Positions 56,781 to 63,806 of a DNA stretch of 64,000 nt are shown piece after piece. Source of the DNA: Ignavibacteria bacterium (lineage in GTDB: Bacteria; Bacteroidota; Ignavibacteria; Ignavibacteriales; SURF-24); NCBI GenBank assembly GCA_025612245.1, contig JAAXKQ010000002.1:186001-250000 (forward strand). Reading direction: 5' to 3'. The first letter of the stretch is position 1, and every line of letters begins with the position of its first letter. Below the pieces are notes generated by a model. The model ran no database searches, had not been told where the DNA came from, and was given only the letters and a program-made list of their open reading frames with translations. The position numbers and the translations under genes are program-made.

Positions 56781-56836
56781 TCCGCCTTAAAAGTTTTGAA
56801 ATACATGATTAATTTCATAGATTTGAGTTATAAATT

Positions 56837-56944
56837 ATGGAAAACATTAATACAGATATGACCCGGTTAATCGGCTGCCCGAAAGCAGCTCTGCATCATC
56901 ATGCTCATCATCTTAACTGCCTGGCCGGTGTCGGATTGTATTAA
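56837..56944 (+). CDS. hisL: his operon leader peptide
   Basis: A 35-residue open frame ending in TAA at 56942, or 28 residues if the second ATG at 56858 is used. It contains HHHAHH encoded by CAT CAT CAT GCT CAT CAT at 56894-56911: five histidine codons in six. It lies before a terminator and the hisG gene, the standard layout of a histidine leader peptide whose translation speed reports charged tRNA-His. No clear ribosome site precedes either ATG. Confidence 0.85.
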   Translation: MENINTDMTRLIGCPKAALHHHAHHLNCLAGVGLY

Positions 56945-56997
56945 ACTAAAATAAAGTTTGAATTTTAATAACCCCGACACTTTTGCCGGGGTTTTTT
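56860..56997 (+). promoter_or_regulatory. Histidine transcription attenuator (leader terminator and antiterminator)
   Basis: The terminator is AACCCCG (56970-56976) paired with CGGGGTT (56987-56993) followed by a T-run. Its 5' arm, CCGACAC (56974-56980), is exactly complementary to GTGTCGG (56928-56934) inside the end of the leader frame. A ribosome stalled on the His codons would leave GTGTCGG free to pair and open the terminator; a ribosome reaching the stop at 56942 would cover it and allow termination. Confidence 0.85.
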
Positions 56998-57028
56998 GTT
57001 TTTAAAGTATAAGGATTAAAATATTAAA

Positions 57029-57898
57029 ATGGAAAACGGAAACTTAAAGCTGGCCATTCAAAAGAAAGGAAGACTCTCGGAAAAGTCGCTGGAGCTTTTG
57101 AAACTTTGCGGACTTGACATAGAAAATTATTCTGAAAGGCTGATCGTCTCGGCTAAAAACCACAAGCTCGACCTTTTATTCCTAAGGGATGACGACATAC
57201 CTGAATACGTGCAGGATGGAGTTGCCGACATAGGCATTGTGGGAGAAGACGTGGTCTATGAAAAGCAGGCCAATATTACGGTAAGCGAAAAACTGGGTTT
57301 CGGCAAATGCAAGCTCATGATTGCGGCCCCGTCTAACGGGATGCCCGAGAGTCTGGAAGACCTGAACGGCAAGACAATTGCAACCTCCTACCCCAACATA
57401 CTCAAGCTCTTCTTAAACGCCAATAACCTGCAGGCCAAGATAATTCAGATCAGCGGTTCGGTAGAAATTGCTCCCTCGCTTGGCGTAGCCGATTTAATTT
57501 GCGACATTGTTTCGACGGGCAACACTCTCAGGATGAACAAGCTCAACAAATCCTTTAATGTTTTTGACTCTGAAGCAGTAATGATCTCAAACAACGACCT
57601 GAAGAAAAATGAGGAAAAGTATGCAATACTGCAGGACTTGATAGCAAGGATGCGTTCAGTCCTTTCGGCCAAGAAGTCGAAGTACCTGATGATGAACATT
57701 CCCAAGAATTCTCTGGAAGAAATTACAAGGATCATTCCTTCGCTTAAAAGCCCCACGGTGCTTCACCTGGCAGACGAGGCTTCGCTTGCAGTGCATGCCG
57801 TAATTCCGGCGGACCGTTTCTGGAGCATCGTAAACGACCTTAAGGCAGCGGGCGCAACGGGAATTCTTCTGCTGCCGATTGAAAACATGATATTCTGA
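57029..57898 (+). CDS. hisG: ATP phosphoribosyltransferase, long form
   Basis: 289 residues: two periplasmic-binding-like lobes (starting LKLAIQKKGRLSEKSLELL, with 'ADIGIVGEDVVYE' and 'CDIVSTGNTLRMN' at the phosphoribosyl site) and a C-terminal ferredoxin-like regulatory domain (about 212-289, 'KYLMMNIPKNSLEEI'). The long form is hexameric and inhibited by histidine without a HisZ partner. First and committed step of histidine synthesis. First gene after the attenuator. Confidence 0.96.
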   Translation: MENGNLKLAIQKKGRLSEKSLELLKLCGLDIENYSERLIVSAKNHKLDLLFLRDDDIPEYVQDGVADIGIVGEDVVYEKQANITVSEKLGFGKCKLMIAAPSNGMPESLEDLNGKTIATSYPNILKLFLNANNLQAKIIQISGSVEIAPSLGVADLICDIVSTGNTLRMNKLNKSFNVFDSEAVMISNNDLKKNEEKYAILQDLIARMRSVLSAKKSKYLMMNIPKNSLEEITRIIPSLKSPTVLHLADEASLAVHAVIPADRFWSIVNDLKAAGATGILLLPIENMIF

Positions 57899-57921: not shown

Positions 57922-59211
57922 ATGAAAATCTTTAATTTCAGGAATTTGGATGAGAAGGAAAAAGAAAACCTTCTCAAGCGCCCGGCAGTGGACCTGAAGG
58001 CGTCTTTTGAAGCCGTAAAGCCAATACTGGATGAAGTTAAGCGTGACGGCCTTAAGGCGGCACTTAAATATGCGGAAAAGTTCGACCGTTTCCCGGGCGG
58101 GGACCTCAGGGTCTCGGAGGCTGAATTTTTGGAGGCCGAGAAAAACCTGGATGGCGAGGTAAAGCATTCAATCAGGAAAGCCGCCGGCAATATAGAGAAA
58201 TTTCACATTAAGCAGCTTCCGAAGCCATACGAAACCGAGACCATGGAAGGCATTCTGTGCTCGCGTGAATACAGGGCAATTGAGAACGTGGGGCTTTATA
58301 TTCCGGGCGGAAGCGCCGTACTGCCATCGACGATGCTCATGCTTGGAATACCGGCGAGAATTGCCGGATGCAAAAGAATTGTTGCAGTTTCCCCGTCCAA
58401 AGGCAACCGGGTTAACGACGCACTCCTTTTTGCGGCAAAGATACTTGGCATAACGGAGTTCTATAAAGTGGGTGGCGTACAGGCAATAGGGCTTCTTGCT
58501 TACGGGGCTGAGGGTTTTCCGAAAGTAAATAAAATTTTCGGACCAGGAAACCAGTACGTTACGGCCGCCAAGCTGCTCGTAAGCATCGACCTTAACGGCT
58601 GCCCAATAGACATGCCCGCAGGCCCGAGCGAAGTGCTGGTAGTTGCAGATGAGTCTTCAGAGCCGTCGTTTGTTGCAGCGGACCTACTTTCGCAAGCCGA
58701 GCACGGGCCCGACTCTCAGGTGGTGCTTGCGGCAACCTCGCAGAAAGTTTTGTCGCGCGTACTTGAACAGCTTGAAAGCCAGCTGCTTCTGCTTCCGAGA
58801 AAGGATATTGCGGTAAGGGCACTTGAATCTTCATTTGCACTATTGACCGAAAGCATAGGTGATGCCATCAGTTTCAGCAACATGTATGCGCCTGAACACC
58901 TGATACTGCACGTTGAGGAGCCTGAAAGCTATAAGCCGCTTATTACAAACGCGGGATCGGTTTTTCTTGGAGGCTATTCTCCCGAAAGTGCAGGCGACTA
59001 CGCATCGGGCACAAACCACTCGCTTCCCACCTACGGCTATGCGAAGTCATTTGGCGGGGTAAGCGTGGAAAGCTTCATGAAAACAATGACATTTCAAACA
59101 CTAACGCGTGAAGGCCTGAGGAGTATTGCCGGGGCAATTGAAACACTGGCTGAGACAGAATCTCTGGCCGCACACAAAAACGCTGTAACTATAAGGTTAA
59201 ATAAATTATGA
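57922..59211 (+). CDS. hisD: Histidinol dehydrogenase
   Basis: 429 residues. Family landmarks are 'VGLYIPGGSAVLPSTMLML', 'FGPGNQYVTAAK', 'DMPAGPSEVLVVADE', AEHGPDSQVV with zinc ligands, and 'GGYSPESAGDYASGTNHSLPT' near the end. A zinc enzyme that oxidises histidinol to histidine with two NAD+. Last two steps of the pathway. The stop overlaps the hisC start by 4 nt. Confidence 0.96.
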   Translation: MKIFNFRNLDEKEKENLLKRPAVDLKASFEAVKPILDEVKRDGLKAALKYAEKFDRFPGGDLRVSEAEFLEAEKNLDGEVKHSIRKAAGNIEKFHIKQLPKPYETETMEGILCSREYRAIENVGLYIPGGSAVLPSTMLMLGIPARIAGCKRIVAVSPSKGNRVNDALLFAAKILGITEFYKVGGVQAIGLLAYGAEGFPKVNKIFGPGNQYVTAAKLLVSIDLNGCPIDMPAGPSEVLVVADESSEPSFVAADLLSQAEHGPDSQVVLAATSQKVLSRVLEQLESQLLLLPRKDIAVRALESSFALLTESIGDAISFSNMYAPEHLILHVEEPESYKPLITNAGSVFLGGYSPESAGDYASGTNHSLPTYGYAKSFGGVSVESFMKTMTFQTLTREGLRSIAGAIETLAETESLAAHKNAVTIRLNKL

Positions 59212-60254
59212 TCGAAAAATTAGCCAGAAAAAACATACTCGCCCTTAAACCATATACTTCCGCCAGGGATATGTATTCCGAGGGGATACTGCTGGATGCA
59301 AATGAAAACAGCCTGGGGACTACTTCCGAACTCTACGGTGACTTGTGCCTTAACCGCTATCCTGACCCGCACCAGGAAGACCTGAAGAAAGCGGCAGGTG
59401 AATACTTCGGCATTGAAGGCAAAAACCTCTTCTTCGGCGTGGGCTCGGATGAGGTAATAGACCTCCTCATAAGGGTCTTCTGTGAGCCCAGGGAAGACTC
59501 GGCCATGATACTCGATCCCACATACGGCATGTATCAGGTTGCCTGCGACATAAACAACGTTAAGACAAAAGTTGTAAACCTGAAGGAGGATTTTCAGATC
59601 GACCTTGAGGCAGTAAAGAAAAATTTCGACTCCACGGTTAAAATTATTTTCCTCTGTTCGCCAAACAATCCCACGGGTAACCTCTTGAAGAAAGATGACA
59701 TACTGGAACTCTGCAGGACATATAATGCCATTATAGCCGTGGATGAAGCCTATGTTGATTTTGCAGGCGATAATTCCTTAATTAAAGAGGTTAACGAGAT
59801 AGAAAACCTGGCAATAATAAGGACTTTCTCCAAGGCCTGGGGGCTCGCGGGCATAAGGCTCGGTTTCTGTGCGGCAAACGAGGAACTGATTCGTCTTCTC
59901 TTCAAGGTTAAGGCTCCCTACAATGTCAGCTCCCTTACAAGAAAGGCCGTTATTAACGCTATTGGAAATAAAAAGAAAAAAGACGAATTTGTGCAGAAAC
60001 TTATTTCGGAAAGGGAACGCGTAAAGGAAGAACTCTCCAAGATTCCGGGCATACTGAAGGTCTATAGTTCAGATGCCAATTATCTCCTGTTTAAGTGCAG
60101 TAATGCAAGACTCATACAGAAGAAAATGGCCGAGGAAGGCGTCATTATTCGCGACAGGAGCTCTTACGAGATGCTGAGAGACTGCCTGAGGGTTTCAATA
60201 GGTACGGAATATGAAAACAACAGATTTCTCGAAGCAATTAAAAAATTCTTATGA
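59208..60254 (+). CDS. hisC: Histidinol-phosphate aminotransferase
   Basis: 348-residue class I PLP aminotransferase. 'LLDANENSLG' at the N terminus, 'SPNNPTGNLL', 'AVDEAYVDFAG' and the Schiff-base Lys209 in RTFSKAWGLAG are typical of HisC. Transfers an amino group from glutamate to imidazole-acetol phosphate. Overlaps both neighbours by 4 nt (ATGA). Confidence 0.95.
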   Translation: MIEKLARKNILALKPYTSARDMYSEGILLDANENSLGTTSELYGDLCLNRYPDPHQEDLKKAAGEYFGIEGKNLFFGVGSDEVIDLLIRVFCEPREDSAMILDPTYGMYQVACDINNVKTKVVNLKEDFQIDLEAVKKNFDSTVKIIFLCSPNNPTGNLLKKDDILELCRTYNAIIAVDEAYVDFAGDNSLIKEVNEIENLAIIRTFSKAWGLAGIRLGFCAANEELIRLLFKVKAPYNVSSLTRKAVINAIGNKKKKDEFVQKLISERERVKEELSKIPGILKVYSSDANYLLFKCSNARLIQKKMAEEGVIIRDRSSYEMLRDCLRVSIGTEYENNRFLEAIKKFL

Positions 60255-61144
60255 ACAAAGTTATTATTGACAAGGAATTCTTTGACCCGGCCTCCCCTCT
60301 TGCAAAGGGACTGATTTCGGGCCTGAAGAAGCTGAGCCGCAAGAATCTCCTCCTTGAAGTAAAAGGGGATAAAATAGATAGCGGACTTAAAAAGATTCTG
60401 GCCCTTGAAGATGTCTGCCTCGGCAGGGCTTCTGAGAAGGCGGACGGGGAATTCCATATTACGGTTAGTGACAATCCGGAATCAAAGTCCGGCGTTATAA
60501 CGGTAAAAGAAGGCTCAAAGACGAGTGACTTCGGCCAGGCTGCCACAAGCCTCATTAAGGCTTTAAGGCATTCCCTGAAATCCAGGAAGACAAAAGAAAC
60601 CGACATTACGGTTGAGGTTTTTCTGGATGGTGAAGGGCATTCAGAAATAAATACCGGCGTTGGCTTTTTTGACCACATGCTCGAGCAGATTTCAAAGCAC
60701 GCCAACATCGACCTTAAGGTTCTTGTAAAGGGTGACCTTTACGTCGATGAGCACCACACGGTTGAGGATACGGGTATAACACTTGGAACGGCCATTAGTG
60801 AAGCCCTGGGTGATAAGATAGGCATAAAAAGGTACGGGTTTTTCCTTCCCATGGATGAGGCCTCGGCGCGCTGCGCAGTTGACTTAGGCGGCAGGACGTA
60901 TCTGAACTTCAAGTGCAGGTTCAGGAGGGAGAAAGTAGGGGACTTTCCGGTTGAGCTTACGGAAGAATTCTTCCGCGGGCTTTCCTCGGGTCTCAAGGCC
61001 AACATATTTCTCAGGGCAAAGGGGAAGAACGACCACCATAAAATTGAGGCGCTCTTTAAGGCATTTGCCAAGGCCTTAAACGAGGCCCTGAGGATGGACG
61101 AAAGAAGTGAAGACAAATTACCATCAACAAAAGGAGTCTTATGA
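60251..61144 (+). CDS. hisB: Imidazoleglycerol-phosphate dehydratase with an atypical N-terminal extension
   Basis: 297 residues. Residues about 110-297 are a complete IGP dehydratase: 'INTGVGFFDHMLEQISKHA', 'DEHHTVEDTG' and 'KGKNDHHKIEALFKAFAKAL' supply the metal ligands, and the C terminus LPSTKGVL matches E. coli HisB. The close resemblance (KETDITVEVFLDGEG...) is to the dehydratase half of the bifunctional enterobacterial/Bacteroidota HisB. The N-terminal roughly 105 residues are shorter than the HAD phosphatase half (about 165) and lack its DxDGT and downstream Lys/Asp motifs, so histidinol-phosphatase activity is not expected. No other phosphatase gene lies in the operon. Confidence 0.93.
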   Translation: MNKVIIDKEFFDPASPLAKGLISGLKKLSRKNLLLEVKGDKIDSGLKKILALEDVCLGRASEKADGEFHITVSDNPESKSGVITVKEGSKTSDFGQAATSLIKALRHSLKSRKTKETDITVEVFLDGEGHSEINTGVGFFDHMLEQISKHANIDLKVLVKGDLYVDEHHTVEDTGITLGTAISEALGDKIGIKRYGFFLPMDEASARCAVDLGGRTYLNFKCRFRREKVGDFPVELTEEFFRGLSSGLKANIFLRAKGKNDHHKIEALFKAFAKALNEALRMDERSEDKLPSTKGVL

Positions 61145-61725
61145 TAGCTCTGATTGATTATGATGCCGGCAATACGGCCTCTGTAGCCAATGCGCTTGGA
61201 ACGCTGGGGCAGGAATTCCTGCTGACCAATAAGGAGGCGGATATCTGTCGGGCCGATAAGATCATATTCCCGGGAGTTGGTGAGGCGTCTTTTGCAATTA
61301 AGCAGCTTCACCGCTATAACCTGATCAACCTTTTGAGGATCGTTAAGAAGCCTCTTCTTGGGATTTGCCTCGGGATGCAGCTCCTCTCGGAATTCTCGAG
61401 TGAAGGGAATATTGCGTGTCTGGGTGTGGTGCCGGGCAGGGTTGAAAAGTTCGACTCCTCAAAGGTGAATGTGCCTCACATGGGCTGGAATGAAGTATTC
61501 CAAAAAAAAGAAAGCAGGCTTTTTAAGGACATTAAAGACGGAGAGTTTTTCTACTTCGCAAATTCCTATTACCTGCCGGTAAATGAATATACCACGGCTA
61601 CAGCAAATCACGGAATCGATTTTACGGCGGCCCTGGAGAAAGACAATTTTTACGGGATCCAGTTTCACCCAGAGAAATCGGGTGATGCGGGTCTTAAACT
61701 CTTAAACAACTTTCTTGAATTATGA
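61141..61725 (+). CDS. hisH: Imidazole glycerol phosphate synthase, glutamine amidotransferase subunit
   Basis: 194 residues of a class I glutamine amidotransferase with triad Cys76 (GICLGMQ), His176 and Glu178 (FHPEKSG). It supplies ammonia to HisF. Overlaps hisB and hisA by 4 nt each. Confidence 0.96.
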   Translation: MIALIDYDAGNTASVANALGTLGQEFLLTNKEADICRADKIIFPGVGEASFAIKQLHRYNLINLLRIVKKPLLGICLGMQLLSEFSSEGNIACLGVVPGRVEKFDSSKVNVPHMGWNEVFQKKESRLFKDIKDGEFFYFANSYYLPVNEYTTATANHGIDFTAALEKDNFYGIQFHPEKSGDAGLKLLNNFLEL

Positions 61726-62438
61726 TAGTAATACCTGCAATAGACATATACCAGAATAAAATTGTAAGACTTAAAGAAGGAGACTTCAGCAAGGTAACTT
61801 TCTACAATAACACTCCCCTGGAACAGGCAAAAATCTTCGAAAGCTACGGCTTTGAGTGGCTGCACGTGGTGGATCTGGAGGGCTCCAAGACGGGAAACGT
61901 ATCGGTCCTCAAGACAATAGAGGAGATAAAAAATAATACCAGTCTCAGGCTTGAGTTCGGAGGGGGCATAAGGGATGAGGCTTCGGTAAGCCGAATACTT
62001 TCTTCCGGCGCCGACCGGGTAATTATTGGATCTCTTTCGGTAGAGAATAAAAAGGAATTTGAATACATACTCTCTAAGCACAGGGCTGAAAAGATAGTAA
62101 TTGCGGCTGACGTTAAAGACGGGATGATTGCTGTCAAAGGCTGGACGGAGCAGACTTCACTTTCCTTGCAGGAGCACATTGAATACTGCATGGCTAAGGG
62201 AGTGGACACGTTCCTTTGCACGGACATTTCACGCGACGGAATGCTTTCCGGAACGAATACGGAACTTTATTCAAAAATCATGGGTGAATTCCAGGGCATT
62301 AAGCTGATTGCCTCGGGAGGCATTAAGGATATTGAAGACGTAAGGAAGGTTTTGGAACTGAAGACCTACGGCGTTGTAATAGGCAAGGCAATTTATGAAA
62401 ACAGGATCAGCTTAGAGGAGCTCGCAGAAGTTGGTTAG
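61722..62438 (+). CDS. hisA: ProFAR isomerase
   Basis: 238-residue (beta/alpha)8 barrel. The N-terminal '[14 protein letters not shown]' carries the catalytic Asp8; a second Asp is in '[12 protein letters not shown]' near residue 168; phosphate-binding loops are 'FGGGIRDE' and 'ASGGIKD'. Fourth step of the pathway. Its end overlaps the hisF start by 8 nt. Confidence 0.95.
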
Positions 62439-63189
62439 CAAGAGAATTATCCCGTGCCTGGATGTAAAGGACGGGAAAGTGGTCAAGGGAACAAATTTTG
62501 TAAATTTAATAGATGCCGGTGATGCCGTTGAACTTGCAGAAAGGTACAGCAAAGAAGGCGCCGATGAGCTCGTATTTCTGGATATAACGGCTTCGGCCGA
62601 AAAGAGAAAGACTCTCCTGTATCTGGTAGAAAAGGTGGCAAAGGCCATAAGGATCCCTTTTACGGTCGGAGGAGGCATTTCGGAACTTCAGGACATAGAG
62701 AGCCTTCTTAAGGCCGGGGCCGACAAGGTCTCGCTTAATTCCTCCATAGTACGTAACCCCTCGCTCATTACCGAGGCCTCCAGGCGCTTCGGAAGCCAGG
62801 CAATTGTGGCTGCCATAGACACAAAAAGAAACATCAGCGGCGTAAACAAAGTTTTTGTAAAAGGGGGGCGCGAGGAGACGGAACTTGAAGGGCTTTCCTG
62901 GTGCCAAAGAGCAGCTGAACTGGGGGCGGGTGAAATACTCCTTACCTCCATGGACAAAGACGGCACAAAGGACGGCTACGACGTGGAGTTCCTCAAGAAG
63001 GTAACCTCAGGCGTCAGCATACCAGTAATTGCCTCAGGAGGAGCCGGGAAAAAGGAGGACTTCCTGGATGCGTTCAAAACAGCAGGCGTAGATGCCTGCC
63101 TGGCTGCAAGTTTATTCCACTTCAGCATACTGGATATAAAGGAATTAAAACAGTATCTCAGAGAAAACAATATAAAAGTAAGGCTTTAA
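62431..63189 (+). CDS. hisF: Imidazole glycerol phosphate synthase, cyclase subunit
   Basis: 252-residue barrel. It starts at TTG 62431 with GAGGAG about 10 bases upstream, giving the expected N terminus [15 protein letters not shown] with catalytic Asp11; the second catalytic Asp is in AAIDTKRN near residue 130. Pairs with HisH. Phosphate loops 'VGGGISE' and 'ASGGAGK' are intact. Confidence 0.95.
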
Positions 63190-63197
63190 GGATAATT

Positions 63198-63806
63198 ATG
63201 ATTGAAATTAGCAAACTGGATTTTAATAAAATGGGCGGGCTTATTCCCGCAGTTGTAACAGACAACTCAAATGGTGAAGTCCTCATGCTCGGCTTTATGA
63301 ACAGGGAAGCCCTCGAAAAGACAATTGAGACGGGGCTGGTTACTTTCTTCAGCCGCACCAAAGAAAGGCTCTGGACAAAGGGGGAAACCTCGGGTAATTA
63401 CCTGAAATTAGTCAGTATGTTCCAGGACTGTGACAACGATTCTCTTTTAATTAAGGCAGTTCCTGAGGGCAATACCTGCCACACGGGGGCATATTCGTGC
63501 TTTTTTGAGGAAAAACCCGCTTCAATCAGCTTTCTAAACGATCTTTTTGCGCTCATTAAGGACAGAAAGGAAAAGCTTCCGGAAGGCTCATATACTACAA
63601 AGCTCTTCAAGAGGGGCACAAACAGAATAATACAAAAAGTAGGAGAAGAGGCCATAGAAACCGTAATTGCAGCCAAAAACAGGGATAAAAATGAGATAAT
63701 GAATGAAACAGCAGACCTCATTTACCACATGTTTGTAATGCTGGCCGAGCAGGAAATAGAGTTTACGGACATCGTAAAGACTCTTGAAATGCGCCATTCC
63801 AAGTAA
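63198..63806 (+). CDS. hisI: Bifunctional phosphoribosyl-AMP cyclohydrolase / phosphoribosyl-ATP pyrophosphatase
   Basis: 202 residues. N-terminal HisI domain (about 1-110) with 'AVVTDNSNGEVLMLGFMN', 'FFSRTKERLWTKGETSGN' and zinc ligands in QDCDND and GNTCHTGAYSC. C-terminal HisE domain (about 112-202) with 'KLFKRGTNRIIQKVGEEAIE' and 'NETADLIYHMFVML'. It performs steps 2 and 3 of histidine synthesis. It ends the operon. Confidence 0.95.
   Translation: MIEISKLDFNKMGGLIPAVVTDNSNGEVLMLGFMNREALEKTIETGLVTFFSRTKERLWTKGETSGNYLKLVSMFQDCDNDSLLIKAVPEGNTCHTGAYSCFFEEKPASISFLNDLFALIKDRKEKLPEGSYTTKLFKRGTNRIIQKVGEEAIETVIAAKNRDKNEIMNETADLIYHMFVMLAEQEIEFTDIVKTLEMRHSK

Follow-up and report, generated by a model that had tools for sequence, protein, structure and literature searches.

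The histidine biosynthesis operon of this Ignavibacteria bacterium is very probably controlled by ribosome-mediated transcription attenuation, a reading in which leader translation, the stalling of the ribosome, the termination event and the histidine response are deduced from the DNA sequence. In the window, that is, the whole stretch of 64,000 nucleotides that was analysed (from a genome of 4.84 Mb in 44 contigs), the following features have been located on the forward strand:

56796..56825, + strand: candidate Bacteroidota-type promoter for sigma-A, TTG-N19-TAGATTTG (-33 / -7), a match to the consensus
56837..56944, + strand: leader peptide ORF of 35 codons, MENINTDMTRLIGCPKAALHHHAHHLNCLAGVGLY*, with its stop codon at 56942-56944
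56894..56911, + strand: regulatory codons CAT CAT CAT GCT CAT CAT (HHHAHH)
56928..56934, + strand: antiterminator 5' arm GTGTCGG, within the final codons of the leader ORF and the exact complement of 56974-56980
56970..56997, + strand: intrinsic terminator AACCCCGACACTTTTGCCGGGGTT, with a hairpin at 56970-56993 and a T tract to 56997 (-11.1 kcal/mol)
56974..56980, + strand: shared arm CCGACAC, used as the 3' arm by the antiterminator and as part of the 5' arm by the terminator
57029..57898, + strand: hisG, long form with a C-terminal regulatory domain (TIGR00070, TIGR03455)
57922..63806, + strand: hisD, hisC, hisB, hisH, hisA, hisF and hisIE (NCBIfam matches), adjacent or overlapping genes on one strand

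The elements named in the original prediction have all been recovered. The leader contains five His codons in six (at positions 56894, 56897, 56900, 56906 and 56909), read as HHHAHH at 56894-56911; GTGTCGG at 56928-56934 is the reverse complement of 56974-56980, and hence exactly complementary to the terminator 5' arm; the terminator lies 32 nt before hisG (the T tract ends at 56997 and the hisG ATG is at 57029); and a complete operon follows, with hisG first and the order hisG-D-C-B-H-A-F-IE according to NCBIfam matches. In the proposed mechanism, RNA polymerase would begin transcription a few nucleotides upstream of the AUG of the leader, with a ribosome trailing behind. Under a shortage of charged tRNA-His, this ribosome would stall on the His run and leave GTGTCGG free to pair with CCGACAC once the latter is transcribed, so that no terminator would form and hisG-IE would be transcribed. 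With histidine in good supply, the ribosome would reach the stop codon and cover GTGTCGG, the hairpin would form and transcription would end 32 nt before hisG.

Conservation of the leader and covariation of its helices

The search for His-rich leaders before hisG in related genomes, which had been proposed along with the original prediction, was carried out in the hisG upstream regions of 90 members of the order, a His-rich leader being an ORF in which some stretch of seven codons holds three or more for His and whose stop lies 40-130 nt before hisG. Such a leader is present in 89 of the 90 members, with at least four His in 72/90; in the controls, it appeared in 13 of 1800 dinucleotide shuffles (0.7%) and in 0/90 regions read on the reverse strand. 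A first search with the pattern CATCACCACCAC had given 0 matches; the His run of the window uses CAT. Among the order leaders, CAT and CAC are mixed within the His run in 53/89, and the rest of the peptide is variable (for example, MKTTINISIHHHHHFNYLR, MLLAIHHNHHHLFLIEEAGVL and MKKENLNITVTGHAHHHHHYFIDAGRS), which together argue for selection on histidine and not on one codon. Apart from the His run, the peptide is not kept between families, whereas the nucleotide arms are. In fact, only the in-frame His codons, the two arms and the terminator are consistently conserved in the alignment.

By one mechanical procedure, a terminator with a competing antiterminator was found in 87/89 leaders; in the other two (those of G033 and G054), there is no usable terminator under the rule applied. 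The distance between the end of the terminator, a GC-rich stem followed by a T tract, and the start of the hisG match ranges from 16 to 59 nt among the order members. The terminator of the window was not picked up by a simple terminator finder, probably owing to its internal mismatch. This is an A-C mismatch in the stem, at precisely the position of an A-U pair in the antiterminator, which suggests that in the window the antiterminator has been kept at the cost of the terminator.

Covariation of the two helices was analysed in 46 sequences, using a MAFFT alignment built without structure in which both antiterminator arms and the terminator 3' arm are aligned. In the antiterminator, 91.5% of the cells are paired and 4/7 pairs have changes on both sides; double-change cells number 27, compared with 9.9 in shuffles that ignore the kinship among the sequences, and 0/500 shuffles attain the score. 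Sliding the antiterminator partner by 1-3 columns makes pairing fall to 25-47%, a control that can favour this helix because the window sequence supplied its structure, although the contrast is nevertheless large. In the terminator, 90.8% of the cells are paired and 7/10 pairs have changes on both sides, with 29 double-change cells against 7.4 in the same kind of shuffles and a fall in pairing to 35-56% when the partner is slid by 1-3 columns. At one and the same position of the arm, G-C is replaced by A-T repeatedly, in each of the three families. Terminator and antiterminator, as predicted, share one arm and hence are mutually exclusive, and each of them is supported by covariation. The full attenuation logic that had been attributed to this exclusive pairing is therefore supported, since all its elements are present and conserved and both helices covary.

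The unit is also specific. A covariance model applied to the genomes of the order gave 79 hits at E values of 2.5e-5 or lower, each of them immediately upstream of hisG and never more than one in a genome. Twenty weaker hits (mostly with E from 1e-4 to 0.01) were also inspected, and 17 of them are gene-end terminators without His leaders. Other histidine-regulated operons were considered among these weak hits and discarded, the 17 being ordinary terminators and the remaining 3 being again hisG leaders.

Ribosome spacing, RNA folding and the predicted 5' end

The distance between the last His codon and the start of the antiterminator arm is 8-23 nt in 87 genomes, with a median of 16; in the window, the His run ends 16 nt before GTGTCGG. 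Assuming that the 3' edge of the ribosome lies 12-13 nt past the A-site codon, a ribosome with the last His codon in its A site would leave the antiterminator arm free in 84/87 genomes, and one with the stop codon in its A site would cover at least half of the arm in 87/87. In some genomes the stop codon precedes the arm, yet a ribosome on the stop codon would reach it. This predicted spacing of the leader elements fits control by a ribosome.

RNA folding, another check proposed at the outset, also favours the antiterminator in the window under a simulated His stall: with the RNA hidden as far as a ribosome stalled at the last His codon, the probability of the antiterminator is 0.98, whether or not the terminator 3' arm has already been made. 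In full-length equilibrium folding with the upstream part hidden, the terminator is favoured in most relatives (median antiterminator probability of 0.03), and therefore the switch would have to be kinetic there, set by the order of transcription. The lowest-energy fold of the window includes a possible 1:2 (protector) pairing that is not better than in shuffles. A protector helix, which would mask the antiterminator arm in an untranslated leader, was sought in 87 genomes; it reached p<0.05 in 18/87 and in 0/5 of the family of the window, and was not found as a general feature.

A rival explanation is that the ORF is a separate small gene, or an sRNA, encoding a His-rich micropeptide (for example, a metal-binding one) with its own terminator, hisG being transcribed from a promoter further downstream. 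In its favour, the terminator is intrinsic and there is a weak sigma70-like match at 57001-57030, but such an arrangement is very unlikely: the peptide outside the His run is unconserved between families in contrast to the nucleotide arms, the antiterminator covariation would be left unexplained, the strong unit occurs only before hisG, and the spacing from the His codons to the arm is constant. Even less probable is an RNA element of the T-box or riboswitch type, sensing tRNA-His or histidine directly and with the ORF being incidental. Although his genes are under T-box control in Firmicutes (PMC9413887), no Rfam family reached the cut-off in the window and 14 related loci, the conserved parts are the in-frame His codons, the two arms and the terminator only, and the use of both CAT and CAC indicates that the amino acid is what is kept.

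Returning to ribosome-mediated attenuation, a candidate promoter of the leader can be recognized in many of the genomes. An exact TTG-N18..21-TAnnTTTG is present upstream of the leader in 48/87 genomes (5/5 in f1, the family of the window; 18/31 in f2; 25/51 in f3), the shuffle rate being 0.2%; for flavobacteria, TAnnTTTG has been described as the -7 consensus (PMC9723704). The first in-frame ATG follows the -7 box after 10-12 nt in 5/5 genomes of f1, whereas this gap is mostly 4-11 nt long in f2 and, in f3, mostly 20-28 nt. In Bacteroides, transcription starts ~5-6 nt after the -7 element, and if the start lies at this distance past the box in the window, its leader mRNA is predicted to have a 5' UTR of ~5-6 nt, that is, to be near-leaderless. 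Leaderless or very short 5' UTRs make up only a small minority in Bacteroidota: they have been reported at 5.5% in Flavobacterium psychrophilum (PMC9723704), and 5' UTRs of less than 10 nt at about 3.7% in Bacteroides thetaiotaomicron (PMC7366714).

Known histidine attenuators and spread in Bacteroidota

The closest likeness is to the his attenuator of enterobacteria (RF00514, hisL of E. coli and Salmonella), which also has a His-rich leader before hisG, an exclusive terminator/antiterminator and a complete his operon downstream. However, seven His codons in a row are found in E. coli hisL and five in six in the window; moreover, no generally conserved protector hairpin was found in the Ignavibacteria order, and the window has a candidate -33/-7 promoter of Bacteroidota type at a very short distance from the AUG of the leader. 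In a 311-base search, the Rfam model RF00514 (His_leader) gave 24.2 bits against the window, the threshold being 49 (E 0.052). Histidine attenuators have been described in Proteobacteria and Firmicutes (PMC9413887, PMC2965389). Those of Firmicutes, which occur in the Bacillus cereus group, Peptostreptococcaceae and Erysipelotrichales, similarly have short peptides with 3-5 His codons and a terminator plus antiterminator before the his operon, but they have been described as scattered and independently acquired (PMC9413887), whereas in the Ignavibacteria order the attenuator is nearly universal, with leaders in many other families of the phylum.

Within Bacteroidota, leader-peptide attenuation has been noted in outline for amino-acid operons of F. 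psychrophilum (PMC9723704) and, together with long 5' UTRs containing sORFs, for B. thetaiotaomicron (PMC7366714), and the Bacteroid-trp motif RF01692 belongs to the same broad phylum (PMC2864571). As far as their accessible text goes, these three accounts name no histidine leader, no Ignavibacteria and no antiterminator analysis. A 2021 study of his genes in the superphylum contains one mention of attenuation, for enterobacteria (PMC8305728). No description of Ignavibacteria attenuators was found in the freely accessible literature searched. The original remark that no detailed description was known for this lineage thus agrees with the searched literature, but has to be qualified in that leader-peptide attenuation had already been outlined in the two Bacteroidota mentioned above. 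The 2004 survey of Vitreschak et al. reportedly mentions Bacteroidetes/Chlorobi attenuators, and with a search confined to freely accessible papers, priority is uncertain: the mechanism is a textbook one and the lineage appears to be new.

Outside the order, a His-rich ORF precedes hisG in 44/80 genomes sampled from the remaining orders and classes of Bacteroidota. According to a hand count, a His-rich leader is present in 40/43 phylum genomes whose HisG is near that of the window (E below 1e-70) and in 0/17 with a distant type of HisG; within the class, the relation between leader presence and HisG type is mixed. In families f33, f28, f40 and f37, leader, antiterminator and terminator are all present with arms of unrelated sequence. 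In f35 and f25, on the other hand, His-rich leaders lie before hisG and intrinsic terminators were mostly absent or weak in this search. Attenuation through translation or Rho and not through the intrinsic terminator, for which these distant relatives might speak, is hardly credible for the window, where a GC-rich stem and a T tract are found as in 87/89 order members.

Several loci of f35 (L120, L125, L137, L139, L141, L142 and L144) carry very His-rich hisG leaders, such as MNRKNLHTTHLHHGVHHLHQGHHHA. In this family there are GTG starts, some leaders with an inverted repeat inside the ORF (GGTGTCC / GGACATC) and mostly no clear intrinsic terminator; it is possible that a different attenuation route is used. 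Another side observation concerns L196, L197 and L198 (in G031, G032 and G008), hisG leaders such as MNLLQLHHHHHHTCSQARW that appeared among the weak covariance-model hits. Their leader and terminator arms resemble those of f33, outside the class (MTFIQLHHHHHHICTQAN), unlike those of their own order, and suggest that the operon may have been transferred together with its attenuator. As for the phylum as a whole, we tentatively consider, with some doubt, that His-codon leaders before hisG may be old in Bacteroidota, and that the Ignavibacteria form may be a minimal two-state attenuator, near-leaderless and without protector hairpin, in which an untranslated leader would read through.

The HisG of the window has named relatives (64-83% identity) mostly in Ignavibacteriales, Melioribacteraceae and other Ignavibacteria MAGs, and this type of HisG is present in 102/164 genomes of the order. 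Since it is a long form with a regulatory domain of its own at the C-terminus, attenuation would be complemented by feedback inhibition. In HisB, ~100 N-terminal residues (window 60251-60560) lie outside the HisB family match, and a match to the bifunctional HisN-HisB model begins only at residue 88; this extension may be a remnant of a phosphatase domain. Other candidate leaders have also been noted. Upstream of trpE in the genome of the window (L203 from 1180; G000:C21 at about 24479) there is a candidate trp leader, MKLQNTTYNFNLTWSFLGSWWRTSIYGDLVN, with three Trp codons and a strong terminator, AAAAGCCCTTCTTAGTTTACTAAGAAGGGCTTTT (-21.7 kcal/mol), before trpE; its antiterminator pairing is weak. 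Finally, a candidate Ile/Leu/Val leader, MKDIAVNILDKKAAVPHGSQGYVLPITSINNISLEILLLGISIVIVVLGIIISILG, lies upstream of ilvD (L200 1114-1284); its 3' part, CCTAGGGATTAGC, pairs with CAATCCCTAATC, and CAATCCCTAATC can alternatively pair with GATCAGGGGTTG in a hairpin without T tract.

Transcription-translation coupling

Leader-peptide attenuation needs a ribosome close behind RNA polymerase, and the phylum makes little use of Shine-Dalgarno sequences. Because attenuators depend on such close following, their near-universal presence in the order makes transcription-translation coupling testable by a simple reporter. The present work describes histidine attenuation in Ignavibacteria with good comparative support and points to a wide occurrence in Bacteroidota, for which earlier accounts are in outline. 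If the near-leaderless two-state reading is true, it would imply tight transcription-translation coupling in the phylum, and the near-leaderless leader would be a naturally occurring example of translation starting on a very short 5' UTR.
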